The notes under the pieces were generated by a model. It saw nothing but the letters and a program-made list of their open reading frames with translations, was not told where the DNA came from and did not search any database. Shown here one piece after another: positions 3,688-26,705 of a stretch of 29,714 nucleotides of DNA. The stretch comes from a virus, in IMG/VR virus record IMGVR_UViG_3300047380_000735, positions 1 to 29,714 of that record; one strand, written 5' to 3'. The position numbers and the translations under genes were made by a program. Numbering within the stretch: the first letter of the stretch is position 1; each line of letters starts with the position of its first letter.

Positions 3688-3962
3688 TATCTAAATTTTT
3701 TGTAATCTTTTTTTGTTGTAAACGATTTAAATCCTTTTAAATACGTTACTGCGTTTACTAAATCAGTTAATGCCTTTTGAATTAATACTATAAAATCATT
3801 CATCGTATTATTTCTAATAATATATGCAGATAAAGAACCTCTTAAAATATTTTCACTGAAGTCATTTCCTAAATTTTTTCTAGAATCTACTGCAGATTTA
3901 CGTACTTCGTAATTTCTCTTTTGTCTACTTTTAAATAAATTTTGAATAGGTGAATTTGCCAT
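3687..3962 (-). CDS. Small protein between gp6-like and gp7-like wedge genes (91 aa)
   Basis: A basic 91-residue protein with no recognised domain. Its N-terminal half is Arg/Lys/Ser-rich (KSRQKRNYEVRKSAVDSRKN). The second half has a helix (about 52-77) with hydrophobic periodicity, followed by a Lys-rich tail. It shares single-base overlaps with both neighbours: its start overlaps the gp6-like stop, and its stop overlaps the gp7-like start. The three are therefore probably co-translated and act together. A small wedge adaptor or assembly factor is plausible by context only. Confidence 0.65.
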   Translation of the reverse strand: MANSPIQNLFKSRQKRNYEVRKSAVDSRKNLGNDFSENILRGSLSAYIIRNNTMNDFIVLIQKALTDLVNAVTYLKGFKSFTTKKDYKKFR

Positions 3963-5782
3963 TATAGTGCTTTTCTATTTTTAGCCTGTATCTGTGCGAA
4001 TATTGTATTCTTTACAGCAGGTTCATCAAAGTAAATAGATAGTGCTGCCATTTCGCCAAGCTTAGCGTCATCTAATACTTCAACACCGTCTCTATCTTGC
4101 CAACCTCCTCTAAACAATGCAACTTCTTGAGATTCTAAAATAATATCACCAAATGAATCTAAGTTAATAACTTCTTCTGGTAATGCAGCATTAGGTTCAA
4201 AATCAACTCTCTGAGTTGTTACAGTTCTTTTAAAGAAAACGTATTTAGATTTACCATTTCCAATATCTTCTAATACCGGCGTTGATGGAGTTACTGTTAC
4301 TTTTTCTAAAGTATAGAATCCATTTCTTCTTGCGTCTTCTTCAACTTGAGAAGTAAATTTAACGTTAACTGAATCAATACCTTCAATTGATTCTAAAATT
4401 GCAATGATATCTGATTTAGGTAAACGGTCTCTTCTTGTTATGCTAATTAAATATTCGCTAATTTTAGATCTTATTTCAGAGTATAACGTTTTTTTGTTAT
4501 AACCTTCAAAATATCTTACTTTAACATCCATTCTAAATTTTTGTACTTTAGGTTCTACTATTTTAACTTCAGTAGTAACCATCTGTTGTCCGCTTTTTTC
4601 TAATAGATTTAATATTCCATTCTTTTCATCACTTGAGAAAAAGAACTCATCTAACCCTAGATTAAAATAATCTTTATTCTTTGTTAGTTTTTTCTTTGTA
4701 TCTGGTAACATAAATAAATAAATCACATTGTCGTCATCTAAATATCCGTCTTCAGTTGTGTTATATGCATCTAAATAAGAGAACATTCCGTATCTTGAAA
4801 GAAAATGCTCATAAGAATTTGGAGTAGCTAAAATAAATGAATGAGACTGTAGAGGTGCAATTAACTTTGTTAATGCGATATCCTCAGGGTCTGCTCCCAT
4901 TTTAGGAGTTACTGTAAATGAAGATTCTAATAATTGGTTTAAATCATGTTCTTCTCCTAAAGAATCAAATCCTTCAGTTACAAATTTAAAAGTTAAATCT
5001 TTAGAACCTGTGAGATTTCCTCCAGAACCATCTGTTACAATGTATTCTATATCAATACTTGCTCCTTCTTGCGGAATTGAACCAAAAGAACCATTACCAA
5101 AATAAACATCTAACCCTCCGTTGATTCCAGTTTTAACTAAATACCCTTTAGTACCAACCTTCATGTCATATAAAGAATCATATTTAGTCCATAATTCACT
5201 ATTAACGCTTACTCTAACTGAGTGATGATCTGTTATGCCTTTTATTATAATGTTAAAAGATTGAAGTTTTTCTCCAGTAGCTGTTACTGTTTGGTTTTCA
5301 ACTTTACCTTGAATAACTGGTATGTATATATAGTTTGAGTTACTTTTTTCAATTCTAAATTTATCAGCGTTTGTCTTTAAAATGTATTCTAATCCATTTG
5401 AAGAACATTTAATTGTAGAGTTTTTAGAAATATTTAATGCGTCACCTGCAATATCTGTAGATGCTGATGTGTTTAGTCTTATTTTTATTTCGCCATACGC
5501 ACTTGCACCTCTAAAAGCGTCATGACCTGCTAGCCTTGATAATCCATAAATTGATTCTGGATTTTGTGCAGTTAAAATATTTTGCTCAACCGTAGAGTCT
5601 TCAATATAGAAGAAAATTAGTTTAGTTATTTCAGATAAAACATCAAGAATTTGAGAGAAAGGAGACGCAGTCGTAAACAACTCACTCGTTCTTCCATATA
5701 AACGAGCAATGTATGTTCTCGTATCTGAGATCATTTCATTAGCTTTAATTCTAGATGTATTTAAAAATTTAAATTCAGCCAT
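3962..5782 (-). CDS. 6: Baseplate wedge protein gp6-like (baseplate J family), 606 aa
   Basis: In T4-like virions gp6 forms the ring of the baseplate wedge with gp25 and gp7, and drives the hexagon-to-star change on contraction. The N-terminal 100 residues have the family pattern: YIARLYGRTSELFTTASPFS, then a helix leading to NPESIYGLSRLAGHD. This is followed by repeated beta domains, including DVYFGNGSFGSIPQEGASID and the IEYIVTDGSGGN type of J-family strand. The C-terminal half has a helical stretch with RDRLPKSDIIAILESIEGI, also typical. T4 gp6 is about 660 residues, so length agrees. It follows gp25 by 17 bases, the usual gp25-gp6 (P2 W-J) order. The leader is AAAATTATAAAAAAAACAA before ATG, without a Shine-Dalgarno. 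Confidence 0.88.
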   Translation of the reverse strand: MAEFKFLNTSRIKANEMISDTRTYIARLYGRTSELFTTASPFSQILDVLSEITKLIFFYIEDSTVEQNILTAQNPESIYGLSRLAGHDAFRGASAYGEIKIRLNTSASTDIAGDALNISKNSTIKCSSNGLEYILKTNADKFRIEKSNSNYIYIPVIQGKVENQTVTATGEKLQSFNIIIKGITDHHSVRVSVNSELWTKYDSLYDMKVGTKGYLVKTGINGGLDVYFGNGSFGSIPQEGASIDIEYIVTDGSGGNLTGSKDLTFKFVTEGFDSLGEEHDLNQLLESSFTVTPKMGADPEDIALTKLIAPLQSHSFILATPNSYEHFLSRYGMFSYLDAYNTTEDGYLDDDNVIYLFMLPDTKKKLTKNKDYFNLGLDEFFFSSDEKNGILNLLEKSGQQMVTTEVKIVEPKVQKFRMDVKVRYFEGYNKKTLYSEIRSKISEYLISITRRDRLPKSDIIAILESIEGIDSVNVKFTSQVEEDARRNGFYTLEKVTVTPSTPVLEDIGNGKSKYVFFKRTVTTQRVDFEPNAALPEEVINLDSFGDIILESQEVALFRGGWQDRDGVEVLDDAKLGEMAALSIYFDEPAVKNTIFAQIQAKNRKAL

Positions 5783-5799: not shown

Positions 5800-6153
5800 T
5801 TATATGTATACTCCTAATTGAAGTCGCGAATCAATAGTAATATCTAAAAACACTGCGTGTCTGTCTACTTCTTTTGCGTAATCAACTTGAATATCTACAC
5901 TATATTTTTGAGCTAAAGGTGCGTATTGAGCTATTTGCTCATTAATTACTTTCTTTAGCTGGAAATCATTATATCTTAATTCATATACGTAATCTTCTAA
6001 ACTTGCACCAAACTCTAAATCACCTAGAACATCTCCTTTTCTCGTGAAAAGTATTGTTTCTATTTGAGTCATTAACATAGAAAGCTCAGCGTCTTGCTGC
6101 AGCTTATCTGGGCTAAAATTTGGTTCTCCTATTTCTTTTACGTAAAACTCCAT
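5800..6153 (-). CDS. 25: Baseplate wedge protein gp25 (GPW/gp25 family), 117 aa
   Basis: This small wedge subunit nucleates sheath polymerisation at the baseplate. The diagnostic GPW/gp25 signature is present: a helix ending in IETILFTRKGDVLGDLEFGA, then SLEDYVYE (residues about 31-59). It is followed by a helix and the strand pair VDIQVDYAKEV and AVFLDITIDSRL. Length matches T4 gp25 (132 aa) and P2 W (115 aa). It sits between the gp13-like neck gene and gp6, the conserved gp25-gp6 order. The start is the ATG at 6151-6153. No Shine-Dalgarno is seen in the TATATA-rich leader. Confidence 0.95.
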   Translation of the reverse strand: MEFYVKEIGEPNFSPDKLQQDAELSMLMTQIETILFTRKGDVLGDLEFGASLEDYVYELRYNDFQLKKVINEQIAQYAPLAQKYSVDIQVDYAKEVDRHAVFLDITIDSRLQLGVYI

Positions 6154-6169: not shown

Positions 6170-7000
6170 CTAAGAATGCATCATCCAATCAGCACCTTCA
6201 TCTGTTTTTATTTCTTCAATTACATTTTCTAATTCAGTTTCTCCTAAACCTTGAATAACATCAGCATTTACTTGAATATTTCCAGGTAATGTAAATCCGA
6301 ATATAGAAAGCTTTTGTCCTAGCGAAACCTTTATTTTTGCTGCGCAATATCTAAAGAATGCTTCATCACTAAAAAGATTACACTCTGGAATAGTTTCATA
6401 TACTTCTAATATAACATCTTTTTTAGGAGTATCTCCCATAAATTTTAACTGATGTGTTAATTGGTTATATTGAAAACTAATTGGATTCTCTAAAACTTGT
6501 CTTGCTAAGTCGTAAAAACTTTCATTAATAACATAGGCTTGCAAATTTTCAGCTGCTGCTGCAGTTCCAGCTCCACCATATAATCCTTGAGCCATCATTC
6601 TTTCCATTGCAAAATCACCGGTCGTGAAATTAATATCGTTTGTCATTCCCGATCTTGATCCTGTTTCAAATACACCGTAAACTGAATAAACTTCGTTTCC
6701 TTTGCTAGTGTCATCCATTCCAGGTAGTGTGATAGCTCTATTTTGTTTAAAATATTCTGAATCAAAAAGAGCAACTGGTAAAACTACAAAAGATTCTTTT
6801 ACAGAATACTCATAATTTTTATAAAACCATTTTTTAGCTCTTTTTACAATGTTCTGAACTTCTTTCTTTGGAAGATTCATAGGGATCATACAAGACCCTG
6901 TAACTTCTTCTGCTAGTTCATTAACAAATTCATTAAAACAGTCACTCCCTAATTGAGGGTCTGCTAACCATGAATCGTCTCCTACAAATATATTACTCAT
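6170..7000 (-). CDS. 13: Neck / head-completion protein, T4 gp13-like (276 aa)
   Basis: The C-terminal two thirds follow the T4 gp13 pattern as I recall it. SFYDLARQVLENPISFQYNQ precedes LTHQLKFMGD (T4: NSANEQLKVMGN), then a strand reading VILEVYETIPE. A helix follows with FFRYCAAKIKVSLGQKLSIF, and then FTLPGNIQVNADVIQGLGET and ELENVIEEI (T4: [20 protein letters not shown]). The N-terminal region has a helix-strand segment with IVKRAKKWFYKNY. T4 gp13 is 309 aa. gp13 closes the portal/neck after DNA packaging. Its place just ahead of gp25 inside the wedge genes differs from T4, where gp13 lies near gp14 and gp15. A gp14-like or other neck adaptor remains possible. Confidence 0.7.
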   Translation of the reverse strand: MSNIFVGDDSWLADPQLGSDCFNEFVNELAEEVTGSCMIPMNLPKKEVQNIVKRAKKWFYKNYEYSVKESFVVLPVALFDSEYFKQNRAITLPGMDDTSKGNEVYSVYGVFETGSRSGMTNDINFTTGDFAMERMMAQGLYGGAGTAAAAENLQAYVINESFYDLARQVLENPISFQYNQLTHQLKFMGDTPKKDVILEVYETIPECNLFSDEAFFRYCAAKIKVSLGQKLSIFGFTLPGNIQVNADVIQGLGETELENVIEEIKTDEGADWMMHS

Positions 7001-7018: not shown

Positions 7019-8314
7019 TTATACTTCTTGATACAACACCTTTTCAGTGTTATCGAATTTAGCTGTTTTTTTATCGTATTTACCTTCTCTAAATATTCCG
7101 CCTTTCATACTTCCTTTAAATATTCCATTTGTTCCATATATATACGCATCATTTGCATGACAGCTTTTATGTATATATGAATTTTTAACTTTGGAAGAGT
7201 TTATCTGACAATTATCATAAAAATTACACTCATCAACATCAGATCCTTCTAATTGACATTGAAATAAATCAGAGTGAGAAACTTCTCCTCTAATATGGCA
7301 ATTTATAAAATCATAATTATCTAATTCAACGCAATACGATAGCTTTCCATCTTTTACTTGAACCCTACCGGTATCAGTATCATAATTTATATGGCCTTTT
7401 GAAATCGCACCATGCGTAAATAATCGCATAACTTGTTCTTTTATATTTGCCCAGTAAATATCTACTATTTTATCTTCTTTATTTAAATCAACACTGAATT
7501 GAATATGTTTCCAATTTTTTTCAATTTCTCTCCAATTTCTTCTAGAATCTATAATTCTCTTATTATCTGCTAATATTTTTTTAAGTTCTAGTGCATTTAG
7601 ATCTGTAAATCTTTTAGACTCTGTTGAATTCCATAATTGAACTAAAAAACTATCTAACATGTGTAATATAGTTGATGTCTTTTTTTCCCAATCGGCTCCA
7701 CCAATATATCTAAATTCTAAATAATTACTATGTCTTTTTTCAAAGTTAATTCCATAGTATTTAGAATCGGGGTAAATAAAATTTTGTTGATTAATTGTTT
7801 TACCGTCAAAGAAATAAGTATCTTTGTTAGGTAAAATAAATTTAATAGATTTTGCGTATGCTGAATCTTTTCTTTCTGGAAAGAATTTAAAAACTTGATT
7901 TTCTTTAAAATCTAAAATAAACTTAAGAACGTTCATTTTAGATATTCTATTTTTATCTTCAATCTTATTTTTATCAAAAGAAATATTCAAATGTATTGAA
8001 GATCTATCATTAGTATATCCATTCTTTTCTATCCACGAACACACATTAATAATCATTAACCTCGCAGAATAATAAGGTACTGCACCGGTTACTAATTCCA
8101 TTAACTTGGCGCCACCACTCATGTCTGGTTCTATTTTAAACTCATCAGAAGTTACAACAAAGTCACTATGTGCTTGTTCCTCTACTCTGATTTTTTTATT
8201 TAAAATCCCAGCAAGTTCTTTAGCAGTTTCCTCTATTGAAATATTTGAATAAAATTCAAATTCTACACCAACTAAGGCGTTTTTCAGTATTTCTGAATCA
8301 TTAAATGTTTTCAT
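7019..8314 (-). CDS. Amidoligase-family enzyme fused to a C-terminal beta-helix/pentapeptide-like domain (431 aa)
   Basis: The N-terminal domain has the motifs of the amidoligase_2 family (glutamine-synthetase/GCS fold, PF12224): GVEFEF (16-21), DMSGGAKLMELVTG (64-77) and RSSIHLNISF (104-113). A later strand reads YLEFRYIGGADWEKK (about 198-212). In this family the Glu residues of the first motif and the His/Glu positions bind Mg-ATP, and members form amide or peptide bonds. From about residue 325 the sequence changes to short repeats with alternating hydrophobic positions: YDFINCHIRG, HSDLFQCQLEGSDV, ECNFYDNCQINSSKV, NSYIHKSCHANDAYIYG. This resembles a right-handed beta-helix of pentapeptide type. 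The gene lies inside the baseplate block, between LPD29-like and gp13-like genes. Substrate unknown; peptide tagging of a virion or cell-wall target is inference. Confidence 0.75.
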   Translation of the reverse strand: MKTFNDSEILKNALVGVEFEFYSNISIEETAKELAGILNKKIRVEEQAHSDFVVTSDEFKIEPDMSGGAKLMELVTGAVPYYSARLMIINVCSWIEKNGYTNDRSSIHLNISFDKNKIEDKNRISKMNVLKFILDFKENQVFKFFPERKDSAYAKSIKFILPNKDTYFFDGKTINQQNFIYPDSKYYGINFEKRHSNYLEFRYIGGADWEKKTSTILHMLDSFLVQLWNSTESKRFTDLNALELKKILADNKRIIDSRRNWREIEKNWKHIQFSVDLNKEDKIVDIYWANIKEQVMRLFTHGAISKGHINYDTDTGRVQVKDGKLSYCVELDNYDFINCHIRGEVSHSDLFQCQLEGSDVDECNFYDNCQINSSKVKNSYIHKSCHANDAYIYGTNGIFKGSMKGGIFREGKYDKKTAKFDNTEKVLYQEV

Positions 8315-8379: not shown

Positions 8380-8751
8380 TTAACTAATAACGTAAGGTTT
8401 ATCCCATTTACCAATATGGACCCAAGTGTAGTAATCAGGTATCATTCCATAATCACCATCTTCAGTTGATGCTCCCTTTCCTTCGTTTAAAATTGGCATA
8501 ATAACATCCATAACATCTGCAATTGATGGATTACTTTCATACTCTTCAGTATTTCTATTCCAAGTTTCAGCACGATAGTCATGATATTGGTTTAGCTGGG
8601 TATATTCAGTTCCAAAATCAGTAGGACCTGACATAATTGCAACTTTAATACCTGAATAATGTTCAGTTGTAATAGATAATTTGTACTGTGGAAGAGCTTC
8701 TTTAAGTGCTTTTCTTTTTGATTTTACTTGTTCTTTTGTGATGTAAGGCAT
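8380..8751 (-). CDS. LPD29-like protein (123 aa)
   Basis: The N-terminal half resembles the LPD29 domain (large polyvalent protein-associated domain 29) found in phage and mobile-element proteins. A helix with RKALKEALPQYKLSITTEH is followed by the strand and loop SGIKVAIMSGPTDFG and a short Tyr-rich segment. The C-terminus has an acidic loop (EDGDYGMIPDYY) and a final WVHIGKWDKPY strand. Its function in any phage is unknown. It has its own promoter cassette and lies directly behind the terminator of the S1-like gene, so it is probably expressed earlier than its structural neighbours. Domain assignment is by pattern only. Confidence 0.6.
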   Translation of the reverse strand: MPYITKEQVKSKRKALKEALPQYKLSITTEHYSGIKVAIMSGPTDFGTEYTQLNQYHDYRAETWNRNTEEYESNPSIADVMDVIMPILNEGKGASTEDGDYGMIPDYYTWVHIGKWDKPYVIS

Positions 8752-8843: not shown

Positions 8844-10112
8844 TTATAGTTTTAAAAAGATTTTTCTTGTCGAAGCATCTATTCTTGTAACCTTAACATT
8901 AATATCGTTACCTGGTTTGATATCTTCTACATCAATACCTTCAAGTTCTGAAATATGTAATAAACCTGCAACTCCTTTTTCAATGTCTACAAAGATTCCA
9001 TAATCTTTAACAGCTTTAACTTTACCAATAACTTGGGTAGGCGCTTTAATTCGATCTTCAATACCTTCCCATAAATCAACAACAGGTTTAGCATCTAATT
9101 GAGTTAGAATGATTTTAGTTTCACTTACAATTTCTTTTATTTTGAAATTGATTGCATCACCAGGTTGTATCTCTCTAGCTTTGTGGGCCTTTAATAATTC
9201 AGGTGTTAAATCATTAACATGAATCATACCAGTTAAACACTCGTTAAATTCAACAAATACTCCATATTTCGCAGATCCTGTAACATTACCTGATAAATCT
9301 TGTGTAAGATTTTCTTTAAGGTCTGAAATCTTAGAAGGAATCATGGCTTTTAAATATTCTCTATGAGATACTACAATAGTTCCTCTCTTTTCTGAAAAAC
9401 TAACAGGTACTACATACATCTCAGTTCCTACTATAGATTCAAAATCTGGAAGTTTATTAATTCCAGCCAAAGAACCTGGCATAAAACAATCTATACCTTG
9501 CACATTTACAATATAACCTCCGCCTGGTATCATATTAGCTACTTTACCAATATATGCAGTGTTTCCGTCTTTAATAGATTCCATTATCTCAGCAGCAACA
9601 GCAGTCTTAACTCCGGCTGAAATAGATCCTAAAACAAATCCTCTAGCTCCTCCCATTTGTAAAACCTGAATCTTAACTTCATTTCCTACGATAAAAGATT
9701 CTCTAATACTTGCTTCTTCTTTTAAGTAATTTACGTACACCATTTCTCTATACCCAATATCAACAGATACCCATTCAGTATTTACACTATAAATAGTACC
9801 AGTGTAGATCTCACCAGCCTCAATACTCATTTGTTGATTAGGTGTTTCTGCCTCGTGGCCCATTAAAATGTTTAAGAAATCTTGTGCGTAAGGATCCTTA
9901 CATAAAACTTTCCAGCCATGTGGAATGTTTTTTAAATTCGTGTTTGCCTTTCTAGTTTGTGATGGACATCCAGCTTCATGCTCAGCCCAATTAAACTCTT
10001 CTGGCGGTACGTTAGCATTAGCTAAAACGCGATCTTCTTTTTTTTCAGTAGCAACTTCTGGTTGCATTGTTCCTGAAAGTCTTTTTCTTTTTTGTTTAAC
10101 GTCTTGTGACAT
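8844..10112 (-). CDS. Four-domain S1-like RNA-binding protein (ribosomal protein S1 homologue), 422 aa
   Basis: After a charged N-terminal extension of about 95 residues there are four consecutive S1 (OB-fold) repeats. They lie at about 99-166 (GEIYTGTIYSVNTEWVSVDI), 182-250 (GNTAYIGKVANMIPGGGYIV), 270-338 (TQDLSGNVTGSAKYGVFVEF, GMIHVNDL) and 358-422 (PTQVIGKVKAVKDYGIFVDI, GLLHISEL). Repeats 3 and 4 are canonical RNA-binding S1 motifs. The first two are more divergent, like the ribosome-binding repeats of bacterial S1. Cellular bS1 recruits mRNA leaders to the 30S subunit and usually has four to six repeats. Host-like S1 in a phage suggests control of translation, RNA stability or RNase targeting. 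The gene has its own terminator and a possible late promoter (10143-10153). It lies within the baseplate block but has no structural features. Confidence 0.9.
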   Translation of the reverse strand: MSQDVKQKRKRLSGTMQPEVATEKKEDRVLANANVPPEEFNWAEHEAGCPSQTRKANTNLKNIPHGWKVLCKDPYAQDFLNILMGHEAETPNQQMSIEAGEIYTGTIYSVNTEWVSVDIGYREMVYVNYLKEEASIRESFIVGNEVKIQVLQMGGARGFVLGSISAGVKTAVAAEIMESIKDGNTAYIGKVANMIPGGGYIVNVQGIDCFMPGSLAGINKLPDFESIVGTEMYVVPVSFSEKRGTIVVSHREYLKAMIPSKISDLKENLTQDLSGNVTGSAKYGVFVEFNECLTGMIHVNDLTPELLKAHKAREIQPGDAINFKIKEIVSETKIILTQLDAKPVVDLWEGIEDRIKAPTQVIGKVKAVKDYGIFVDIEKGVAGLLHISELEGIDVEDIKPGNDINVKVTRIDASTRKIFLKL

Positions 10113-11977: not shown

Positions 11978-12694
11978 TTATTTATTTTTTTGTTGATAGT
12001 TAATATGATTGTTCTTTGCTTGATTTATAAAAATAGGCGTCGGCGCTAATGGAGGCCCAGAAGGTCCTACACCAGTTGGATGAGTATGTGCCTTATAATC
12101 ATCTAAAAAAGTATTTAACCAAGTTTCTAAAGATACTCCTCTAACAGCTGGTTCGCTTTCGTCAGCCCCAGCTTCTCCTTCATTTGATAAAAATATATTT
12201 CCAGAATCTAAGAATATCTTTTCATCTGTTGAAATCTTTATCATACCATCTTCGTCTATTTGAATAAGTGGTCTTTCTTTAGCTCCACTTCCTCTTGTGA
12301 TTACTAACCCGTCGTCTTGTGAATGATATATTCTTAAGTTTCTTTCAGCGTCATACACTAAACTGATAACGTCCTGTGGTGCTGATGAAGATTCTAAAAT
12401 ATCTTCTTTTAATTCTTTGTTTTGATTAATGTGAAACCAATATTCTGGATGATATATGTTTCCGTTATCAAATCTAACTGCAACTATATCGCCAACTCTA
12501 GGGGTTGCATGTGAACCTGGTAAATCCCTATTCATAGGAGTTGCCCATGGAATAGCATCGTCTGGCAAGTTATCAAATTTACCATACACCTTGATTCTAC
12601 ACCTACCTAAATTTTTAGGATCTGTGTTATCGACAACTGCACCTAACCAGTGAGTTTCTCTAATATTATCTTTTTCAAGTTCTTCGCTATTCAT
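11978..12694 (-). CDS. 5: Baseplate spike protein, gp5/VgrG OB-fold type without lysozyme domain (238 aa)
   Basis: The spike at the centre of the baseplate punctures the outer membrane. Residues about 15-110 form the gp5 OB-fold: THWLGAVVDNTDPKNLGRCR, IKVYG, then IPWATPMNRDLPGSHATPRV, GDIVAVRFDNGN and PEYWFHIN. This is the standard beginning of gp5/VgrG/gpV proteins. Residues 130-200 are short beta repeats of the needle type (LIQIDEDGMIKIS, KIFLDSGNIFL). The C-terminus has HTHPTGVGPSGPPLAPTP, a typical His/Gly/Pro-rich spike end. T4 gp5 is 575 aa with an inserted lysozyme; that domain is absent here. It follows the 396-aa gene with an 8-bp overlap. The hub gene 13891-15732 is its expected partner. 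Confidence 0.88.
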   Translation of the reverse strand: MNSEELEKDNIRETHWLGAVVDNTDPKNLGRCRIKVYGKFDNLPDDAIPWATPMNRDLPGSHATPRVGDIVAVRFDNGNIYHPEYWFHINQNKELKEDILESSSAPQDVISLVYDAERNLRIYHSQDDGLVITRGSGAKERPLIQIDEDGMIKISTDEKIFLDSGNIFLSNEGEAGADESEPAVRGVSLETWLNTFLDDYKAHTHPTGVGPSGPPLAPTPIFINQAKNNHINYQQKNK

Positions 12695-15733: not shown

Positions 15734-16222
15734 TTAAATAGTAATTGTGCCTCCTTCTATATCCATATTCTTTTCTCCATCTTTAAGGATATTAGGTGGA
15801 AGTATTTCTTTAGATCCGTTTAATTTTTGTGATGCCTTTTGTTTTAAATATTCAATTCTGTTCTGATCTTTAACAGTTAATCTCTTACTATCCATAAATT
15901 GATCTTTAATAGGATGTGAGCTATCTGATTTATCTTGTGGTTTAATAGTTTTCCAATTCTTAAATGGAAGATCAGTATATGGTATATTAAGAACATCTCC
16001 TTCATTAATTGAAAATGGATTAGAAATGTTATTGAATTTTAATATTTGTTCAGAGTATGTTGTATTGTTATATACTCTATCGGCAATTAAATCAATTCTA
16101 CCAACTTCATCAGCATGTACAGTGTATACTGTCATGGTTTTAACATTTTCATTAAATAGAACGCAAGGCTCAGTTAATCTGAGTTTATTATTTTTTACTT
16201 TTTTATTATCTATTGATTTCAT
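15734..16222 (-). CDS. 53: LysM-like baseplate protein, gp53-like (162 aa)
   Basis: Residues about 30-85 read MTVYTVHADEVGRIDLIADR, VYNNTTYSEQILKFNNISNP, then FSINEGDVLNIP. This is the LysM-like pattern of T4 gp53 and P2 gpX (strand, helix, 'I..fN.I.nP', 'G..L.IP'). The remainder is Lys/Asp/Ser-rich and probably extended. T4 gp53 (196 aa) joins adjacent wedges around the hub. The gene lies between the 590-aa tube-associated gene and the hub, with 1-bp gaps on both sides. A plain LysM-fold tail protein (gpX-like) is the alternative. Confidence 0.65.
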   Translation of the reverse strand: MKSIDNKKVKNNKLRLTEPCVLFNENVKTMTVYTVHADEVGRIDLIADRVYNNTTYSEQILKFNNISNPFSINEGDVLNIPYTDLPFKNWKTIKPQDKSDSSHPIKDQFMDSKRLTVKDQNRIEYLKQKASQKLNGSKEILPPNILKDGEKNMDIEGGTITI

Positions 16223-16223
16223 A

Positions 16224-17996
16224 TTATCCGTTTGCTAATTTTCTCAATTCTTTAACAATATTCGAGTTTTTGCCTTTGGTTTTACCATAAGCATCTACAT
16301 CTGTTACTGCATTAATATCTACTGAGTCTGATGGTTGTATGTAGAATCTACCACGACCCAGGTTAAACATTGATTCAATTTCAGCTTTATCTCTTGGTCT
16401 TGCTGGTTTTAATTTAACAATTACTACCATTCTTTCCGGGAAATCATTAGGTCCCATAGCTCCTTCGAAATTCACTTCAGTATCAGTACATGCCATATTA
16501 CCCATAACCGCAATAGGATTTAATGGATTACCAATAGTAACATGCCATTGTCCAGTTGAATCACCAGTTAAAAGAGACTGAACTGCTTGTCCTCCCTGTG
16601 GAGTATTAAACATTTTCATTAAACCACCTCCTAATAAATTTCCAAAAACTTTACCAATTCCATTCTTTTTTAAACCATCTTTTACATTGTCAAACATTTG
16701 AGTCAGACTAGCTCCTCTCCCACTCTTTGTAATATCTTGAAGAACAGTCTGCATAAAACCTCCAAAATCTCCATTTCTTATTTTTTCAATATCACCTAGC
16801 GGTTTAGTAATTGATCCATCTCCAATATATCTAACGGCCCCACCCCAAAAAGGAGCATTATTATATGTAAGAGCCAATATGTTTGCAAGTTGATCCATCA
16901 TTAAAATTTTAGGATTTGATCCTCCAAGATCTCTTAGCTCATATTCAAACTTAAGACTAAATTCTTGATTAAATGTCATACCCTGTTCTCTCATTAAAAC
17001 TTTATTAATTACATTGATAGGGCCAAACACGTGATTAGGATATGTATTAGTAAATGAATCATACCCTGCATTTGCGTCTGCTGATGCCGTTTCATAAGCG
17101 TCTTTACCCTGTGCTGCAGATGCTGCAGCTGATAATAACCTGTCTCCCGCGATTCTAGCTCCAAATGTACCCGATCTCGATTTTGTTTGAGATTGTAGTG
17201 TTTGGACTTTAGCCTCAGCTTCTTTCCAATTGAAACCATGTGAAAATTTCATAATATCTGATAGATTATTACCAGTAGATTCTCCCATCCAAGTAATAGC
17301 TCGAGCAATATCCGGTTGAGGTACACTCTCACCGCCCATACTTTTTGGAGATATAATATCATCAGGACATGGAAATGAAAATCTTCTTAAAGTAATCATC
17401 ATGTTATTTGGTATTTTACCAAAATAACGTGTTAATGCAAAATCAGAATAACTATATGCATATCCATAATTATCGGCAATTCCTTCGGTCATTTGTATAA
17501 TTTTAGATGCAGTTGGATTTGCTAATACACTCGGGTCAATTTTATTAAAATGCTTACTTGCACCACCGGCTTTACCACCTTCTGGGTTTAAAACACTTCC
17601 TCTAAAATCAACTAAAGAATATTTACTAAATAAAGAAAATGGTCTTGGACCTATTGTAATGTCTCCTCCGGTCGTTTTTCCGTCTAAACCGTCAGGAATT
17701 GTATGAGTGACTGACTCTTCTAAATTTGTATAAAATTTAGAGCCATCAGTACCTACATTTTCAACTGTAATATCCCCAGATACTCCTGCGATATTTAAGT
17801 TATTATCTAATTCTTGATTAGATTTTAAAGAGTTATTTGTATTTCTAGAAGTAAGTTGAGATTGAACCCCGTCAGGATTTTCTAAATCAACGTCAAAGCC
17901 GGCTGCCCTTTTAATAGAGTTTATCCCACCTTGAATTCCTTTACTGATTCCCTTTCCAACCGAATTAGTCGCACCTTTTATATTAAGTCCTGGCAT
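16224..17996 (-). CDS. Tail-tube-cap/baseplate central protein (590 aa), gp48/gp54-like by context
   Basis: The N-terminus is Gly/Ser/Asn-rich (GKGISKGIQGGINSIKRAAG), followed by a long region with aromatic strands (FSLFSKYSLVDFRGS; YAYSYSDFALTRYFG; MITLRRFSFPCPDD). An Ala-rich segment (about 280-310) and a Gly-rich helix region (about 400-465) come next. The C-terminal domain reads GQWHVTIGNPLNPIAVMGNM, ACTDTEVNFEG, then FPERMVVIVKLKPARPRDKA and GRGRFYI. 'HVTIGNP-NP-.-MGN' with 'FP..M.V.V.LKPARPRDKA.IE.MF' recalls a module I have seen in tube-initiator proteins of T4-like Bacteroidetes and large phages. It is the first gene of the baseplate block; the TATATATAAT stretch upstream may be a promoter. 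Confidence 0.6.
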   Translation of the reverse strand: MPGLNIKGATNSVGKGISKGIQGGINSIKRAAGFDVDLENPDGVQSQLTSRNTNNSLKSNQELDNNLNIAGVSGDITVENVGTDGSKFYTNLEESVTHTIPDGLDGKTTGGDITIGPRPFSLFSKYSLVDFRGSVLNPEGGKAGGASKHFNKIDPSVLANPTASKIIQMTEGIADNYGYAYSYSDFALTRYFGKIPNNMMITLRRFSFPCPDDIISPKSMGGESVPQPDIARAITWMGESTGNNLSDIMKFSHGFNWKEAEAKVQTLQSQTKSRSGTFGARIAGDRLLSAAASAAQGKDAYETASADANAGYDSFTNTYPNHVFGPINVINKVLMREQGMTFNQEFSLKFEYELRDLGGSNPKILMMDQLANILALTYNNAPFWGGAVRYIGDGSITKPLGDIEKIRNGDFGGFMQTVLQDITKSGRGASLTQMFDNVKDGLKKNGIGKVFGNLLGGGLMKMFNTPQGGQAVQSLLTGDSTGQWHVTIGNPLNPIAVMGNMACTDTEVNFEGAMGPNDFPERMVVIVKLKPARPRDKAEIESMFNLGRGRFYIQPSDSVDINAVTDVDAYGKTKGKNSNIVKELRKLANG

Positions 17997-19041: not shown

Positions 19042-19348
19042 TTTTCTTTTCTTGCAACTCTTTTATTTTGAGTTCCAAATTCTTTATTTTAAAATCAATT
19101 TCAGAGGGAGAAGCTTTATAATGTTCTCCCCAATCTGAATCAATTTGTATCTGTATTTTAGATTTAGAGTTTCCTAATTCTAGACCAACGTCTATACAAA
19201 GTTCTTCAATAAATTTAATTTTGTTCGATATACTATCAAACTCATATACTGTAGTAGATTCGTAAGTTTCTCCAGCACCGTTAATATTGTCATCAACCAC
19301 TGATCTAATTACGCCATTATCTGCTAGTTGTAATTTAATTTCCTGCAT
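19034..19348 (-). CDS. Unknown small acidic protein with C-terminal coiled coil (104 aa)
   Basis: The first 60 residues are acidic and mixed (YESTTVYEFDSISNKIKFIE, then a helix ELCIDVGLELG). The end is a clear amphipathic coiled coil (EIDFKIKNLELKIKELQEKK). Start and stop overlap the neighbouring genes by 14 and 8 bp. No family is recognised. The coiled coil suggests oligomerisation or a partner among the adjacent small proteins. Confidence 0.6.
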   Translation of the reverse strand: MQEIKLQLADNGVIRSVVDDNINGAGETYESTTVYEFDSISNKIKFIEELCIDVGLELGNSKSKIQIQIDSDWGEHYKASPSEIDFKIKNLELKIKELQEKKNG

Positions 19349-19727
19349 TTTTTCTAGCTGCTAAAGATTGTTGAGCTTCTCTTCTTAATACATTTGCCTG
19401 TTTTTTATCAGCTCTATAAGTATCTTTATCTTTAATTGCAGTTATTGTCCATGCTTCTTCTAATTTAGAAATTTCATCAGAGTTATATCCGAAAGATTCC
19501 CAAGTTTCTTTTAATATATTTAATTTAGACATTAGTTGCTCTTCAATTGAGTCTAATCTTCTCTTTTCGTTTATACGTTCTGATTCTTTTCCGTCTTCAG
19601 CCATTTTAGTATACCATGCTATTCCTTGCTCTGAAAATCTACCGAACATGTTTTTTATTTTTAAAAAACCTGCTTGTCTAAATTGTTGTCTTTTTTGCTT
19701 TCTAGCGTATGATGATCCTTTTGCCAT
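19335..19727 (-). CDS. Unknown basic helical protein (130 aa), first gene behind a late promoter
   Basis: The N-terminus is strongly basic (GSSYARKQKRQQFRQAGFLK) and the rest is helical and charged, with a central coiled-coil stretch (KRRLDSIEEQLMSKLNILKE) and a Lys/Arg/Ala-rich tail. No named domain. TATAAATA lies 29 bases before the ATG, and the gene leads the coupled group 19727 to 18048. Nucleic-acid or scaffold binding is conceivable from charge only. Confidence 0.6.
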   Translation of the reverse strand: MAKGSSYARKQKRQQFRQAGFLKIKNMFGRFSEQGIAWYTKMAEDGKESERINEKRRLDSIEEQLMSKLNILKETWESFGYNSDEISKLEEAWTITAIKDKDTYRADKKQANVLRREAQQSLAARKNAGN

Positions 19728-19755: not shown

Positions 19756-19763
19756 TATTTATA
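19756..19763 (-). promoter_or_regulatory. T4-type late promoter TATAAATA
   Basis: The minus strand reads TATAAATA, the exact T4 late consensus core recognised by gp55, 29 bases upstream of the 130-aa start and at the head of a coupled gene group. It is followed by TACTATAAT, partly like the T4 TATAAATACTATT extension. The region is AT-rich, so the match is suggestive. Confidence 0.45.
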
Positions 19764-20274: not shown

Positions 20275-20490
20275 TTATGAATTTATTATTATATCACTAA
20301 AATCGGTTTTGTTTATTTTATTGTTTTTTTGAAATTCTTCAATAAACTCAATTGATTCAGATGGACCTATAAGAGCATCTGGTGATGTTACATATATTTT
20401 ATAAAACCAATTAGATCCTTTCTCTAATAGTGTCTTTTTTAATTCTTTAACCTCTGGTACGTATCTTTTATTAAATCCCATTAATTCCAA
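20275..20490 (-). CDS. Unknown small protein (71 aa)
   Basis: A 71-residue protein with helical pattern (YVPEVKELKKTLLEKGSNWF) and the segment YKIYVTSPDALIGPSESIEF. No recognised family. The start overlaps the end of the dCMP deaminase gene by 10 bp, and only one base separates it from the 166-aa gene. A gene this tightly coupled in the same frame direction is likely real. Confidence 0.6.
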   Translation of the reverse strand: MELMGFNKRYVPEVKELKKTLLEKGSNWFYKIYVTSPDALIGPSESIEFIEEFQKNNKINKTDFSDIIINS

Positions 20491-20897
20491 ACATTTACTT
20501 GTTCAACAATAATACCAGCTTGTTGTAATAGTTCAACACCGCTCATATCTCTATAATCTTCTGTATAATATACCTTTGATATACCAGCTTGTATAATTAA
20601 CTTTGCACATCCAAAACAAGGACATGTTGTCGTATATAGCTCTGCACCTTCGCAACTCATTGTTGATTTAGCAACTTTCATAATTGCATTTGATTCAGCA
20701 TGTAAGACTGCTGGTTTTGTTATATTACCATCTTCACACACATTATTAAATCCATGTGGCATTCCATTATATCCGAAAGAAATAACTTGATGATCTTTTA
20801 CGATAATACACCCTACCTTTCTTCTTTCAGCATAACTTAACTTTGCAAACTGATATGCGTTTTGCATGTAAATTATTTCAATAGGTAATCTTGGCAT
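20481..20897 (-). CDS. dCMP deaminase (138 aa)
   Basis: It converts dCMP to dUMP, feeding dTMP synthesis for phage DNA. The zinc motifs of the cytidine/deoxycytidylate deaminase family (PF00383) are complete: HAE at 66-68 (KPAVLHAESNAI) with Glu68 as proton shuttle, and PCFGC at 93-97 giving Cys94 and Cys97. RRKVGCIIVKD and the FGYNGMPHGFNN loop are characteristic of the dCMP branch. Phage T4 Cd is 193 aa; this one is close to the bacterial ComEB length. A palindrome and a terminator lie directly upstream, so it begins a new transcript. It overlaps the next gene by 10 bp. Confidence 0.93.
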   Translation of the reverse strand: MPRLPIEIIYMQNAYQFAKLSYAERRKVGCIIVKDHQVISFGYNGMPHGFNNVCEDGNITKPAVLHAESNAIMKVAKSTMSCEGAELYTTTCPCFGCAKLIIQAGISKVYYTEDYRDMSGVELLQQAGIIVEQVNVWN

Positions 20898-20907
20898 GTT
20901 TATTTGT

Positions 20908-20932
20908 TTTATTGATATATTATATCAATAAA
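20908..20932 (-). promoter_or_regulatory. Perfect 11-bp inverted repeat over a TATAAT box, upstream of dCMP deaminase
   Basis: TTTATTGATAT (20908-20918) and ATATCAATAAA (20922-20932) are perfect inverted arms with a 3-base centre. On the minus strand the centre spells GATATAATATATC, which includes a TATAAT -10 hexamer. It ends 10 bases before the ATG. It is either an operator covering the promoter or an AT-rich hairpin; no protein partner is visible. Confidence 0.5.
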
Positions 20933-20951
20933 CGTAGAATAGTTTCTAAAT

Positions 20952-20980
20952 AAAAAAAGCCTGGAAATATCCAGGCTTTA
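20952..20980 (-). terminator. Rho-independent terminator after the acidic repeat protein
   Basis: On the minus strand AAAGCCTGG, a six-base loop (ATATTT) and CCAGGCTTT form a 9-bp GC-rich stem followed by T7. It is 22 bases after the stop at 21003. The plus strand lacks a T-tract after the stem. It is the strongest terminator in the window. Confidence 0.88.
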
Positions 20981-21002
20981 TTAGAGAGTAAATTATATGT
21001 TA

Positions 21003-21725
21003 TTAAGCTTCTTCAGCGTCATGTGCGCTATCAGATTCTTTCATTTCATTCATTTTATTCGTGTAAGACTCTATCATAGAATTACAAGCAGCTTCATAAG
21101 CTTCTACTGCGTATTCTTCTTTCATTTCTTTTAAAGATTTTGCAGCTAACGCAGCGATTAATGCAGCGTTTTCTTTCATATAAGATTCTACAGTGTGTTC
21201 GTCATGTGCATCGTCTTCGTAAGCTTTAGCTTCGTTTTTACAAGACTCATAAACTTCTGTTAACATTTCAGATACTGATTTGTGTGATTCTTCTTCAGCT
21301 TCAACCTCTTCAGATTCTTCAACAGCTTCTTCTTCAGTTGCTTCTTCTTCAACCTCTTCAGCTTCAACCTCTTCAGATTCTTCAACAGCTTCTTCTTCAG
21401 TTGCTTCTTCTTCAACCTCTTCAGCTTCAACCTCTTCAGATTCTTCTACTTTGTAAGTTTCTCCTTCGAATTCGAATTCTTTCTCACCAGCTTCTTTAGC
21501 TTTTCTAACTGCATCTCCAAAGGCGTTACCTTCTTTAACATCAGTTTCTTCAGTTTCTGTTAATTCCTTAACTTCGTCTCTTTCAGATTGTACAGTTTCT
21601 GCTTTAGCTTGTGCTTCTTCAGACCCTTTTTCATCTGGAGCTCCTAATTCAACAACGTCTTGTTGAATTTCTTCAGTTCTATCCATTTCAGATAAAAACT
21701 GTTCAAATGATTTTAATTTTGCCAT
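21003..21725 (-). CDS. Acidic repeat protein with T4-type capsid-targeting sequence (240 aa)
   Basis: The N-terminus MAKLKSFEQFLSEMDR resembles the capsid-targeting sequence of T4 internal proteins (MKTYQEFIAE type). L11-S12-E13 fits the gp21 protease rule (L/I)-x-E. The body is extremely Glu-rich. A conserved core-type segment is GDAVRKAKEAGEKEFEFEGE, then TYKVEE. A 21-residue unit (ESEEVEAEEVEEE, ATEEEAVE) is repeated twice plus a part. The C-terminus is helical, Ala-rich (ENAALIAALAAKSLKEMKEE) and then acidic again. A prohead core or internal head protein is the best reading: such proteins are very acidic and cut during maturation. No capsid gene lies within the window. Confidence 0.75.
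   Translation of the reverse strand: MAKLKSFEQFLSEMDRTEEIQQDVVELGAPDEKGSEEAQAKAETVQSERDEVKELTETEETDVKEGNAFGDAVRKAKEAGEKEFEFEGETYKVEESEEVEAEEVEEEATEEEAVEESEEVEAEEVEEEATEEEAVEESEEVEAEEESHKSVSEMLTEVYESCKNEAKAYEDDAHDEHTVESYMKENAALIAALAAKSLKEMKEEYAVEAYEAACNSMIESYTNKMNEMKESDSAHDAEEA
21298..21445 (-). repeat. 63-bp tandem repeat, 2.3 copies, inside the acidic protein gene
   Basis: Units at 21298-21360 and 21361-21423 are identical in the bases I compared. A third partial unit follows from 21424. Each codes for 21 residues, very rich in Glu, Val and Ala. The DNA identity, not only the protein, suggests recent duplication. Confidence 0.9.
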
Positions 21726-21787
21726 AATATGTTAAAAATTATTGTTTTTTATTATTAGATTATATATCTATATTATATTGTTGATTT

Positions 21788-22138
21788 TTAATTCTTTTTT
21801 ATAAGTATTTTTAGTTGAGATTTACCTGGTATAATTCTATGAATTGTTCCTTTCGGTATTTTAATATCAATCCCTGTAAGTAATGGAGTTGGTATCTCAT
21901 TGTCATATTGAAATTTCCAATCGGAGTCTTCTAATACTTTAATAAGTCTATCTTCAGGATCACTGTGCCATTTATATAAGTGGTCTGGATATTTTTCTTT
22001 AAATTCTCTTATGATTTCATTTTCTGAAACGATTGTCTCTGTAAAAGGTAATGTCTGATCATCTATCATAGATATCATTTCATCCATTGTCATGTCTTTA
22101 CATTTACATGATTTACATTTGCAATCTTTTTCTACCAT
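21788..22138 (-). CDS. Small protein with N-terminal Cys cluster (116 aa)
   Basis: The protein begins MVEKDCKCKSCKCKDM, a CxCxxCxC arrangement (Cys6, 8, 11, 13) that could bind a metal ion. Residues about 60-116 form a compact segment: PDHLYKWHSDPEDRLIKVLE, DSDWKFQYDN, then TGIDIKIPKGTIHRIIPG. This recurs in phage hypothetical proteins as far as I recall. Its function is unknown. Its start overlaps the end of the 179-aa gene by 7 bp. It is 62 bp ahead of the acidic core-like gene. Confidence 0.65.
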   Translation of the reverse strand: MVEKDCKCKSCKCKDMTMDEMISMIDDQTLPFTETIVSENEIIREFKEKYPDHLYKWHSDPEDRLIKVLEDSDWKFQYDNEIPTPLLTGIDIKIPKGTIHRIIPGKSQLKILIKKN

Positions 22139-22671
22139 GGTTGATCACTTTTTAAGCCAAGTTGTTTTCCAAATAATGTAGGCCCATAACATGCCCAGAA
22201 TCCTGCTTTCATAGGATCCATTTTAGCTGCTTTATCACATCCATGTCTTGCCCAAAAACTAGCAGCCTTTCCAGGATCATCGTTTTTTACAGAAAGATTA
22301 GGATCTCCCCATTCTACTTTCTTTGCAAGAATGTTTCCTTCTTTATCTTTTCTTCCTCCGTCTCTATATACTATAAATTTCTTTTTACCTCCTCTTTCTG
22401 GAGAGTCTAATTTAACTTTAATAGTTTTACCGCCACGTGGAGTATATAATGCTGAAGTACCTACGTCTAAATTTTTAGCCATCCATCCTGAAGGACCTTT
22501 TAATATTATATTGTTTTTATCCCAGTATTGTTTTACTTCTTCAAACAATTTAGAATATGCATCACTTCCTAAACGAAAGAATGAATTAGTAAGATCTAAT
22601 CCTTCTTCGATGTGAGCTTTTAATTCAGGTGAAACATTGTTCCAATCTTCAAATGTTTTTATAAACTTCAT
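22132..22671 (-). CDS. Conserved phage protein with GDPNLSVK/RHGCD domain (179 aa)
   Basis: The C-terminal half has a pattern repeatedly found in marine phages: KKFIVYRDGGRKDKEG, then KKVEWGDPNLSVKNDDPGKA, SFWARHGCDKAAKMD and KAGFWACYGPTL. Family members usually show 'FGDPNM.IKRDDPERRKSFRARH.CD' and 'KARYWSC', and no activity is known to me. The N-terminus, MKFIKTFEDWNNVS, resembles a capsid-targeting start but lacks a clear (L/I)-x-E cut site. The Cys and His residues could bind metal. It is next to the acidic core-like protein and may share a head-assembly role, which is inference. Confidence 0.65.
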   Translation of the reverse strand: MKFIKTFEDWNNVSPELKAHIEEGLDLTNSFFRLGSDAYSKLFEEVKQYWDKNNIILKGPSGWMAKNLDVGTSALYTPRGGKTIKVKLDSPERGGKKKFIVYRDGGRKDKEGNILAKKVEWGDPNLSVKNDDPGKAASFWARHGCDKAAKMDPMKAGFWACYGPTLFGKQLGLKSDQPW

Positions 22672-22686
22672 AGGTTATATATTCAT

Positions 22687-23610
22687 TTAACTTAGGACTA
22701 ATTCGTAGTCTTTTTGATATTTGATTAATGCAAGTTCTTTTGCTTTTACTTCTAGTTCAATATCTAGATCCATGTTATATGTTTCTATCTTTTCATAAAC
22801 ATAATCAGCATGTGCTCTGATAATAACACTAGCGTCTTCATGTAGCTTTTTGGATGATGAATAGTGACATAGTTGTCGAATTCCTTTTGGCCAAGTTTTT
22901 GAAGCAAGTCGAAGAGCATCTTCTTCAGGCATTGGATCTTCATAGCATCTATGGTGGTGATAATCAAAAGTAATTGGAGTACCTATTTGTTCATATATCT
23001 CGTATAGATCTTGAACTGAATACTGTGCTGGCTTGTCATCGTTTTCTAGAACAAGTCTTGCTTTTGCAGAATCACCAAGTCTTTTAAAGTTATCTATAAA
23101 TCTTTGCTTTGCAGATTCTTTATCGCCGTATGAACCACCTACATGTATATTCATAGAATATGTGTGGTTTTGAGGTAGTCCCATCGTATCCATAATAAAT
23201 GCATGTTGATTTAATTCTCGTATTGTAGTTTCAACAACCTTTTGAGTAGGGCTTGGTAATACACAAAACTGACCTGGGTGAAAACCAACTCTTTGATTAT
23301 ATGATTGTGCAAGAGTACCTGCGCCTTTTAATAAGTTTTTGATTGTTTTCCAATTAGGTAAATCAGTTAGCTCATACTCACTCATCCAAGGGAACATAGA
23401 ACTAGACATACGATAGATATTGATACCTTTCTTTTTATTCCATTTAATAATTTCAATCATATCACGAACATTTGCTTCAGCTAATTCACCAGCGTATTTG
23501 ATGCCTTTTGCTTGAAACGTTCGCTTGATCATAGATCTACCGATTTTGATACCTTCTTTTTCTTGTAATGTGAGATTGATACAACAGTACCCTAAATTTA
23601 CTTGTGCCAT
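22687..23610 (-). CDS. uvsE: UV damage endonuclease UvsE/UVDE (307 aa)
   Basis: It nicks DNA 5' to pyrimidine dimers and other distortions, allowing excision repair. All UvdE (PF03851) TIM-barrel motifs are visible: RMSSSMFPW (67-75), HPGQFCVLPS (111-120), NIHVGGSYGDK (154-164), LVLENDD (186-192), FDYHHH (215-220), RAHADYV (265-271) and DIELEVKAKE (283-292). His, Glu and Asp residues of these motifs hold the metal cluster. Length is normal for bacterial UvsE (about 300 aa). T4 uses the unrelated DenV glycosylase. It is 15 bp ahead of the GDPNL gene and 3 bp behind the 77-aa gene, so it lies inside a multigene unit. Confidence 0.96.
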   Translation of the reverse strand: MAQVNLGYCCINLTLQEKEGIKIGRSMIKRTFQAKGIKYAGELAEANVRDMIEIIKWNKKKGINIYRMSSSMFPWMSEYELTDLPNWKTIKNLLKGAGTLAQSYNQRVGFHPGQFCVLPSPTQKVVETTIRELNQHAFIMDTMGLPQNHTYSMNIHVGGSYGDKESAKQRFIDNFKRLGDSAKARLVLENDDKPAQYSVQDLYEIYEQIGTPITFDYHHHRCYEDPMPEEDALRLASKTWPKGIRQLCHYSSSKKLHEDASVIIRAHADYVYEKIETYNMDLDIELEVKAKELALIKYQKDYELVLS

Positions 23611-23613
23611 ATA

Positions 23614-23847
23614 TTATATTTTACATTGTTTTTTTATTTTGTTTACGAATCTTTCTGCGTCACATGCTTCCTCGAGTGTCATTACATCTGTGTCTTGAAA
23701 TAATAGACCTGAACCTGTGTTAACAAAAAGAAGATCTTTTCCTACGGTTTCTACAGAGTTTACTGAATGTACAGTCATGTCTTCTAAATAAACTATTTTG
23801 TCAGAGTTAATAATCCTATTAACTCGATCATCCATAGATAATTTCAT
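23614..23847 (-). CDS. Unknown small protein (77 aa)
   Basis: The sequence is mixed alpha/beta: DKIVYLEDMTVHSVNSVET, VGKDLLFVNTGSGLLFQD, then EACDAERFVNKIKKQC. No family is recognised. Only 3-5 bp separate it from its neighbours, the 137-aa gene and uvsE, so it is co-transcribed with both. Confidence 0.6.
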   Translation of the reverse strand: MKLSMDDRVNRIINSDKIVYLEDMTVHSVNSVETVGKDLLFVNTGSGLLFQDTDVMTLEEACDAERFVNKIKKQCKI

Positions 23848-23852
23848 ATTTT

Positions 23853-24266
23853 TTAATATTCTTTTTCAAAAGTATACCAGTGATCTGCTGTTGCACAATC
23901 CATTAAAGCAGATTCTAAAACTGTAATAATATCTTTTGCTGTCATGTTGTTTACCTGTGCGTTCATCCACATTTCAGCTAAGTGTTTTTCTCCTTTAAAT
24001 ATATTAATTGAATAGTCCCATAAGCCGCTTGCCATTCTTGTTAAAATCTTATCATTGTCTTCTACTCTTGAACCAATATGCCAATTATCTTGTAATTGAT
24101 CAGAGTCTTGTAGTTCCTCTAAGATTTGTTTTTTTGAAGCCATCATAAAATGTGTTTTCAAAAAGGCTGATAATGTTTGATAATTTTCTTGAGTTAAAAG
24201 CTGTGCTGCTCCGCCTGTAATTCCGTTACAAACTATTTCACTTGCATTGAATTTAAAATTTGTCAT
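23853..24266 (-). CDS. Unknown protein (137 aa), first gene of the uvsE unit
   Basis: A mainly helical protein with many Asn, Gln and Trp (FLKTHFMMASKKQILEEL; GLWDYSINIFKGEKHLAEMW; MDCATADHWYTFEKEY). No motif or family is recognised. It has a divergent copy of the recurrent promoter cassette directly upstream (24274-24312) and a leader ATAACAAAAAAACGTAAAAC, with no Shine-Dalgarno. It may be an early regulatory protein. Confidence 0.6.
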   Translation of the reverse strand: MTNFKFNASEIVCNGITGGAAQLLTQENYQTLSAFLKTHFMMASKKQILEELQDSDQLQDNWHIGSRVEDNDKILTRMASGLWDYSINIFKGEKHLAEMWMNAQVNNMTAKDIITVLESALMDCATADHWYTFEKEY

Positions 24267-24273
24267 GTTTTAC

Positions 24274-24312
24274 GTTTTTTTGTTATAGTTAAATATAAGC
24301 ATAATAGTTGGG
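24274..24312 (-). promoter_or_regulatory. Recurrent phage promoter cassette, divergent copy D
   Basis: On the minus strand the copy has TTTTTTTAT, ATGCTTATATT and AACTATAAC in the same order and spacing as copies A and B. The 47-base core is only partly conserved. It lies immediately ahead of the 137-aa gene. Confidence 0.45.
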
Positions 24313-24342
24313 ATAAAAAAACTTTTATGCATTTTTTTCGAA

Positions 24343-24567
24343 TTATCTTTCTAAAATTACAACAGAACCAAATTCATCATCAAAAACCTTAATTAAGTTT
24401 TCATAATCTGAACTCATCATTCTGTCTAACATATCCTTGATATAAGACTCACTCATACCAACTTGCTTACCAAAACTTTTAGCATAACCCATAAGGGCAA
24501 ATGCATTTCCATCTGGACCTGTCAGGTCGATTACAATTTCGGATTTAGTTTTTTTTGATCTAATCAT
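24343..24567 (-). CDS. Conserved small phage protein (74 aa), start moved to 24567
   Basis: The C-terminal part matches a widespread small phage family: EIVIDLTGPDGNAFALMGYA, with a helical centre, then SSDYENLIKVFDDEFGSVV and ILER. A frame upstream to 24645 exists, but that extension spans a promoter cassette (24580-24610) and a terminator (24604-24632). The ATG at 24565-24567 therefore fits much better and gives the normal length. Function is unknown. It is a transcription unit of its own, between the terminator and copy D. Confidence 0.8.
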   Translation of the reverse strand: MIRSKKTKSEIVIDLTGPDGNAFALMGYAKSFGKQVGMSESYIKDMLDRMMSSDYENLIKVFDDEFGSVVILER

Positions 24568-24579
24568 AACTTTATCTGT

Positions 24580-24610
24580 TTTAATTATACTACTAATATA
24601 AACAAAAAAA
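24580..24610 (-). promoter_or_regulatory. Recurrent phage promoter cassette, copy C
   Basis: The minus strand reads TTTTTTTGTTTATATTAGTA, then GTATAATTAAAA. It matches copy A almost base for base from TTATATTAGTA to AATTAAAA (one difference). It ends 12 bases before the ATG at 24567. Confidence 0.6.
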
Positions 24611-24632
24611 CCCAAACAAAAAAATGTTTGGG
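24604..24632 (-). terminator. Rho-independent terminator after the membrane-protein gene
   Basis: On the minus strand CCCAAAC, an eight-base loop (ATTTTTTT) and GTTTGGG give a perfect 7-bp stem followed by T7. It is 27 bases after the stop at 24660. The T-tract runs straight into promoter cassette C, so the two overlap. Confidence 0.75.
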
Positions 24633-24659
24633 AATTTATTTTCAAAAGTTATTAACAAT

Positions 24660-25642: not shown

Positions 25643-25650
25643 ATTAAAAC

Positions 25651-25670
25651 CTTTAGGTATTATACTAAAG
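25651..25670 (-). promoter_or_regulatory. Possible promoter/operator ahead of rnhB
   Basis: Perfect inverted arms CTTTAG (25651-25656) and CTAAAG (25665-25670) flank a TATAAT-type core; on the minus strand the element reads CTTTAGTATAATACCTAAAG. The TTAGTATAAT core recalls cassettes A and C. Leader sequence AAAGG downstream may act as a ribosome-binding site. Confidence 0.4.
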
Positions 25671-25685
25671 ATTTATCATTTGTTT

Positions 25686-26390: not shown

Positions 26391-26404
26391 ATTTTATTTT
26401 ATTT

Positions 26405-26662: not shown

Positions 26663-26705
26663 TTCTTGTTAATGTTTTTAACGTAATGTATTATGTAATA
26701 CTTTA

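Follow-up and report, generated by a model that had tools for sequence, protein, structure and literature searches.

An amidoligase fused to a predicted pentapeptide beta-helix beside the tail genes of huge phages

A gene encoding an amidoligase fused to a pentapeptide-repeat beta-helix was identified in a stretch of 29,714 nucleotides (the window), which is the viral record IMGVR_UViG_3300047380_000735 of IMG/VR. The open reading frame (7019..8314, - strand) encodes a protein of 431 amino acids, as the initial annotation had it. The protein consists of a glutamine-synthetase-fold ligase domain with C-terminal helices (residues 13-303; 7406..8278, - strand) followed by a pentapeptide-repeat beta-helix domain (residues 304-426; 7037..7405, - strand). 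This two-domain architecture, which rests on the sequence and a predicted model, is almost certainly correct. The fusion gene lies beside tail-building genes and is common to some of the largest known bacterial viruses. The combination of an amidoligase with a beta-helix appears to be undescribed: no description of such a fusion in phages was found in the literature searched, where the two terms co-occur only for another superfamily.

Ligase and beta-helix domains

A model of the 431-residue protein was predicted by AlphaFold2 from an alignment of 51 relatives, and the same 51 sequences were used for the residue counts given below. The model has a mean predicted local distance difference test score (pLDDT) of 90.5 and a predicted template modelling score (pTM) of 0.83, and its residues 13-303 form an alpha/beta ligase domain with C-terminal helices. 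The Pfam family Amidoligase_2 (PF12224) matches the window protein with 29.9 bits against a curated cut-off of 22 (E = 6.4e-7) and matches 22 of the 51 relatives at E <= 0.1; by Pfam alone, the match falls below significance in most huge-phage relatives. In a Foldseek search of the PDB, glutamine synthetase ranks first (E = 6e-5, probability 1.00, with a low whole-chain template modelling (TM) score of 0.3) and the gamma-glutamylcysteine ligases 3nzt and 1v4g rank lower than the glutamine synthetases; a Foldseek search of BFVD retrieves many viral models named amidoligase. No significant family was returned by a PHROGs search of the protein.

Several motifs are conserved in the ligase domain, all encoded on the - strand. 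These include GVEFEF with the putative metal-binding Glu pair E18/E20 (residues 16-21; 8252..8269), DMSGGAKLMELVTG with D64, S66 and E73 (residues 64-77; 8084..8125), SSIHLNIS with H108 (residues 105-112; 7979..8002) and LEFRYIGG with E200 and R202 (residues 199-206; 7697..7720). The residues E18, E20, D64, S66, E73, K158, K185, N190, E200 and R202 are identical in 51/51 sequences and H108 is present in 50/51. The first three motifs had been the grounds for calling the protein an amidoligase; all of them are present, the Pfam cut-off is passed, and the Glu and His residues singled out in advance for an alignment check are retained. The order of the residues (ExE, D-E, H, ExR) is one that we take to fit the glutamine synthetase/gamma-glutamylcysteine ligase class, and the conserved Glu, Asp, His and Arg residues are a putative catalytic set, assigned by analogy with these enzymes. 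One relative (L235:10001-11359) has Q in place of H108 and S in place of N110 and is possibly an inactive member.

The C-terminal part of the model (residues 304-426) contains short strands almost exclusively, and its pLDDT is above 90. Three-residue strands start at residues 349, 354, 359, 364, 370 and 375, which is the spacing of a pentapeptide beta-helix. The regular five-residue ladder extends from about residue 349 to 381, about two coils, with one slip near residue 367. Over residues 329-412, the autocorrelation of L/I/V/F/M residues at lag 5 is 10, where shuffled sequences predict 4.3 (p = 0.0012). Averaged over the family, peaks occur at lags 5 and 10 in the C-terminal part and are absent from the N-terminal part. 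The repeats reported by the initial annotation are therefore real, but its length of about 95 residues is not: the domain spans about 120 residues, of which the ladder is the regular part. Pentapeptide_4 matches 32 of the 51 relatives, and the window protein itself has no Pfam pentapeptide call. A pentapeptide repeat protein has been defined as having at least eight contiguous consensus repeats (PMC8145042); set against this definition, the window protein has its ladder with the slip, and the Pentapeptide_4 matches lie in the relatives.

Profile and structure searches point to the same fold. The family profile matches pentapeptide chains in the PDB (E = 4e-5), including AlbG/McbG-like proteins, a designed beta-helix and MfpA, and the best matches among natural proteins are AlbG/McbG-like, MfpA and Qnr chains. 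Foldseek also retrieves the pentapeptide protein AlbG from the PDB, and a BFVD pentapeptide protein matches the C-terminal part with a TMt of 0.86 over 97 columns. Profile matches to lambda integrase and MAP2K7 were taken as chance. Two residues of the beta-helix, G343 and R409, are invariant in the 51 sequences; R409 lies in the motif GGIFREG near the end of the domain (residues 405-411; 7082..7102, - strand). Structure prediction, which had been named beforehand as the check on this part, returned a beta-helix, and the C-terminal domain is predicted to be a right-handed quadrilateral beta-helix, its handedness being taken from the fold and sequence matches rather than from coordinates.

Conservation is highest in the ligase domain, where the mean pairwise identity is 0.52 against 0.37 in the beta-helix. 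Judged from the ratio of nonsynonymous to synonymous substitution rates (dN/dS), both domains are under purifying selection, with medians of 0.05 (ligase) and 0.12 (beta-helix) that come from non-independent pairs and a partly saturated dS.

Distribution and gene neighbourhood

Relatives of the fusion are numerous. In IMG/VR, one scan returned 198 relatives, another that started from the largest phages 327 and a profile scan at least 543, these sets overlapping. Six huge-phage records of 462, 634, 636, 642 and 735 kb (two) carry the fusion over 90-95% of its length. The fusion, which the initial annotation proposed to look for elsewhere, is thus not peculiar to the window: a relative is present in hundreds of IMG/VR contigs and in these six records. 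The gene is single copy in 9/9 large records searched, and the divergence of the relatives reaches down to about 30% identity. Within the collection searched, all phages with the full fusion are uncultured, and no cellular relatives turned up in a pattern-based, non-exhaustive scan of the genomes of bacteria and archaea. The suggestion that relatives would be found in T4-like phages was partly right: the relatives are huge phages with a T4-like tail. Al-Shayeb et al. 2020 (PMC7162821) assigned the largest genomes of their study to the Mahaphage clade and predicted Bacteroidetes as hosts of those above 634 kb.

Two of the huge phages encode further proteins that resemble one of the domains. The 642-kb phage LR756502, which carries the fused form, also encodes a second, divergent stand-alone amidoligase of 364 amino acids without the pentapeptide part (L254:1254-2348, - strand), with the motifs SFEFEIE, TGLHINIG and YVEFRYVGG. 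Since this phage has a separate stand-alone amidoligase, the two forms probably cannot stand in for each other. The 735-kb phage LR756501 encodes a 689-residue protein of WxNGxFxGG repeats (L255:629-2698, - strand) that is matched by the pentapeptide part of the profile and has the look of a solenoid, either a long beta-helix or something related.

The genes around the fusion were compared in 66 non-redundant loci (<80% protein identity, about 10 kb on each side). In 61/66 loci, one or more genes for tail, baseplate or neck proteins lie within about 10 kb; the remaining five are either short contigs or so divergent that such a gene may have been missed. The location among baseplate genes claimed by the initial annotation is borne out in the window, where all of the following genes are on the - strand. 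The next gene downstream, separated from the ligase gene by 18 bp, encodes a head-tail adaptor (neck) protein (6170..7000; phrog_211, head-tail adaptor Ad2, E = 2e-14). It is followed by genes encoding a gp25-like baseplate wedge protein (5800..6153; GPW_gp25, E = 1.4e-5, just under the curated cut-off; phrog_43) and a gp6-like baseplate wedge protein (3962..5782; phrog_219, baseplate wedge subunit, E = 3e-34). On the other side are genes encoding a gpV/gp5-like baseplate hub OB domain (11978..12694; Phage_base_V, E = 4.6e-7), a small tail/baseplate wedge-type protein (15734..16222; phrog_15542 and phrog_1269, tail), which is near the ligase in 38/66 loci, and a probable baseplate/tail-tube junction protein (16224..17996), which is the commonest neighbour (39/66 loci). 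The top Foldseek matches of the last protein are T4 tail and contractile baseplate chains; its gp48/gp54-like assignment is tentative because the model is of low confidence (pLDDT 50).

An S1-domain protein resembling ribosomal S1 (8844-10112) is encoded upstream of the ligase in a marine branch (18/66 loci), in which the arrangement S1, ligase, neck, gp25, gp6 hardly varies. An LPD29-domain protein (8380-8751) lies between the S1-like gene and the ligase gene; it was rejected as a partner, as no orthologue was present in the 66 loci. In the largest-phage branch, order and strand are changed, and the wedge-type protein and the homologue of the 16224-17996 protein are mostly within a few kb of the ligase. 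Because of these changes, sharing a position in an operon is not enough to account for the link to tail genes. A single-copy enzyme that is kept by tail genes in phages of up to 735 kb and down to about 30% identity likely matters for the life cycle.

Comparison with known amidoligases and pentapeptide proteins

The phage Amidoligase_2 proteins of UFV-P2, LUZ24 and tf, which are COOH-NH2 ligases of the glutamine-synthetase fold, have the fold and the motif set in common with the window protein. The tf amidoligase (I2FLP2) is a structural match to it in BFVD by Foldseek, and a direct profile comparison with the single UFV-P2 amidoligase was not significant. Compared with these three, the window protein adds the pentapeptide beta-helix and is without a glutamine amidotransferase partner, and it is encoded among tail genes whereas the UFV-P2 amidoligase belongs to an early cluster. 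Published phage amidoligase clusters contain a glutamine amidotransferase, to which UFV-P2 adds an ATP-grasp enzyme and others. GATase_6 is present in UFV-P2, and a search for it was negative in nine large relatives of the window protein and positive in 14/14 control genomes; the fused ligase is without its usual amidotransferase partner.

The jumbo phages Atu_ph07 (AUZ94978.1) and Salicola phage SCTP-2 (gp125) encode a homologous ligase core (hhalign E = 8e-13 and 2e-11, respectively) with a motif similar to LEFRYIGG, and the Atu_ph07 gene is near the portal gene. The aligned region stops short of the beta-helix, and their sequences show no evident pentapeptide-like tail. An uncharacterised protein of an uncultured Caudovirales phage in BFVD (A0A6J5PQ40) is a full-length structural match (TM 0.84/0.82, 24% identity).

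The five-residue ladder is common to AlbG/McbG-like proteins, Qnr and MfpA, but the beta-helix of the window protein is short and attached to an enzyme. The ubiquitin ligases SopA and NleL (PMC8145042) also combine a ligase with a short pentapeptide beta-helix, and 3sqv is a weak Foldseek match. This is an architectural analogy only, as their catalytic domain is unrelated, their beta-helix is N-terminal and they act on animal host proteins; the role of their pentapeptide domain is itself unsettled.

Possible targets of the ligase and other genes of the window

The anatomy of the protein fits an amide-bond-forming enzyme with a rigid docking arm. By analogy, the protein would be an ATP-dependent carboxylate-amine ligase of the glutamine-synthetase/gamma-glutamylcysteine-ligase fold and probably active. 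It would be made together with the tail proteins, and its target would be a tail, baseplate or neck protein, onto which it would ligate an amino acid, amine or peptide through an amide or isopeptide bond. As the rigid docking arm, the C-terminal beta-helix would bring the enzyme to this target or to an assembly intermediate. The parts of this scheme that we infer are catalysis and its use of ATP, expression late in infection, the substrate and docking by the beta-helix. Because the tail-gene link persists even where order and strand have changed, the most likely target is a tail or neck protein, and we tentatively favour a tail-modifying ligase with a docking arm while holding it at somewhat below an even chance. 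To our knowledge, a phage tail modified by enzymatic peptide ligation has not been described; were the tail the target, the chemistry would be of a kind new to virion maturation. The wider proposal that ATP-dependent amide ligation of a tail, baseplate or neck protein, targeted by the beta-helix, is a conserved virion maturation step of huge phages is doubtful. The initial annotation had suggested modification of a virion or cell-envelope component; of that reading, the domain pair, the predicted beta-helix, the conserved putative catalytic residues and the tail-gene link are supported, and modification of a virion component, as opposed to a host envelope component or a small molecule, is still a proposal.

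Several points weigh against a tail-modifying role. A conserved neighbourhood indicates linkage, not action on a neighbour. A scan for the late-promoter sequence TATAAATA gave no excess over chance in the window and no site near the ligase gene. Catalysis may not be universal because the L235 relative carries H108Q and N110S, and the dN/dS estimates are subject to the limits given with them. For other phage amidoligases, the cell wall has been put forward as the site of action (PMC10580990, citing Iyer 2009).

The last proposal also favours a host-directed ligase, which would amidate or add amino acids to the host envelope late in infection (e.g., peptidoglycan peptides), blocking superinfection or tuning lysis, its position by the tail genes reflecting late timing only. 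The window does encode host-directed candidates such as the S1-like protein and DnaJ. Such a ligase is nevertheless somewhat unlikely, as GATase_6 is missing from the large relatives, inspection by eye, without a predictor, revealed neither a signal nor a membrane segment, and the tail-gene link survives rearrangements. If the target is in the host, the protein would be an envelope-modifying tool of huge phages that works without the usual partner. The conserved motifs make either a tail or a host target directly testable.

Beta-helices are common in tail parts, and the protein could itself be a baseplate or neck component that uses its beta-helix as an assembly contact, with the enzyme perhaps acting once delivered into the cell. 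The virion genes nearby and the conserved single copy are consistent with this, but the ligase is the more conserved domain, as expected of an enzyme, and a structural role is unlikely. A catalytically dead scaffold or chaperone, whose fold merely binds a peptide or nucleotide and aids tail assembly without ligation, would agree with the loss of H108 and N110 in L235; it is improbable, since 50 of the 51 sequences retain H108 and none departs from the rest of the putative catalytic set. Mimicry of DNA by the beta-helix, as in Qnr and MfpA, bringing the ligase to gyrase or topoisomerase, can be virtually dismissed despite the AlbG/McbG-like, MfpA and Qnr profile matches: these are expected for any pentapeptide protein, the two regular coils are much shorter than Qnr-type proteins, and no neighbour points to a topoisomerase.

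Elsewhere in the window, the T4-like late promoter consensus TATAAATA occurs at 19756-19763 (- strand), 29 bp upstream of the open reading frame at 19335-19727. Beyond the tail genes, the region 20481-28014 (- strand) encodes a dCMP deaminase, UvdE endonuclease, RNase HII, PhoH and DnaJ. This DnaJ carries both the J and the C-terminal domains; DnaJ has also been described for aquatic 'moraphages' (PMC12619734).
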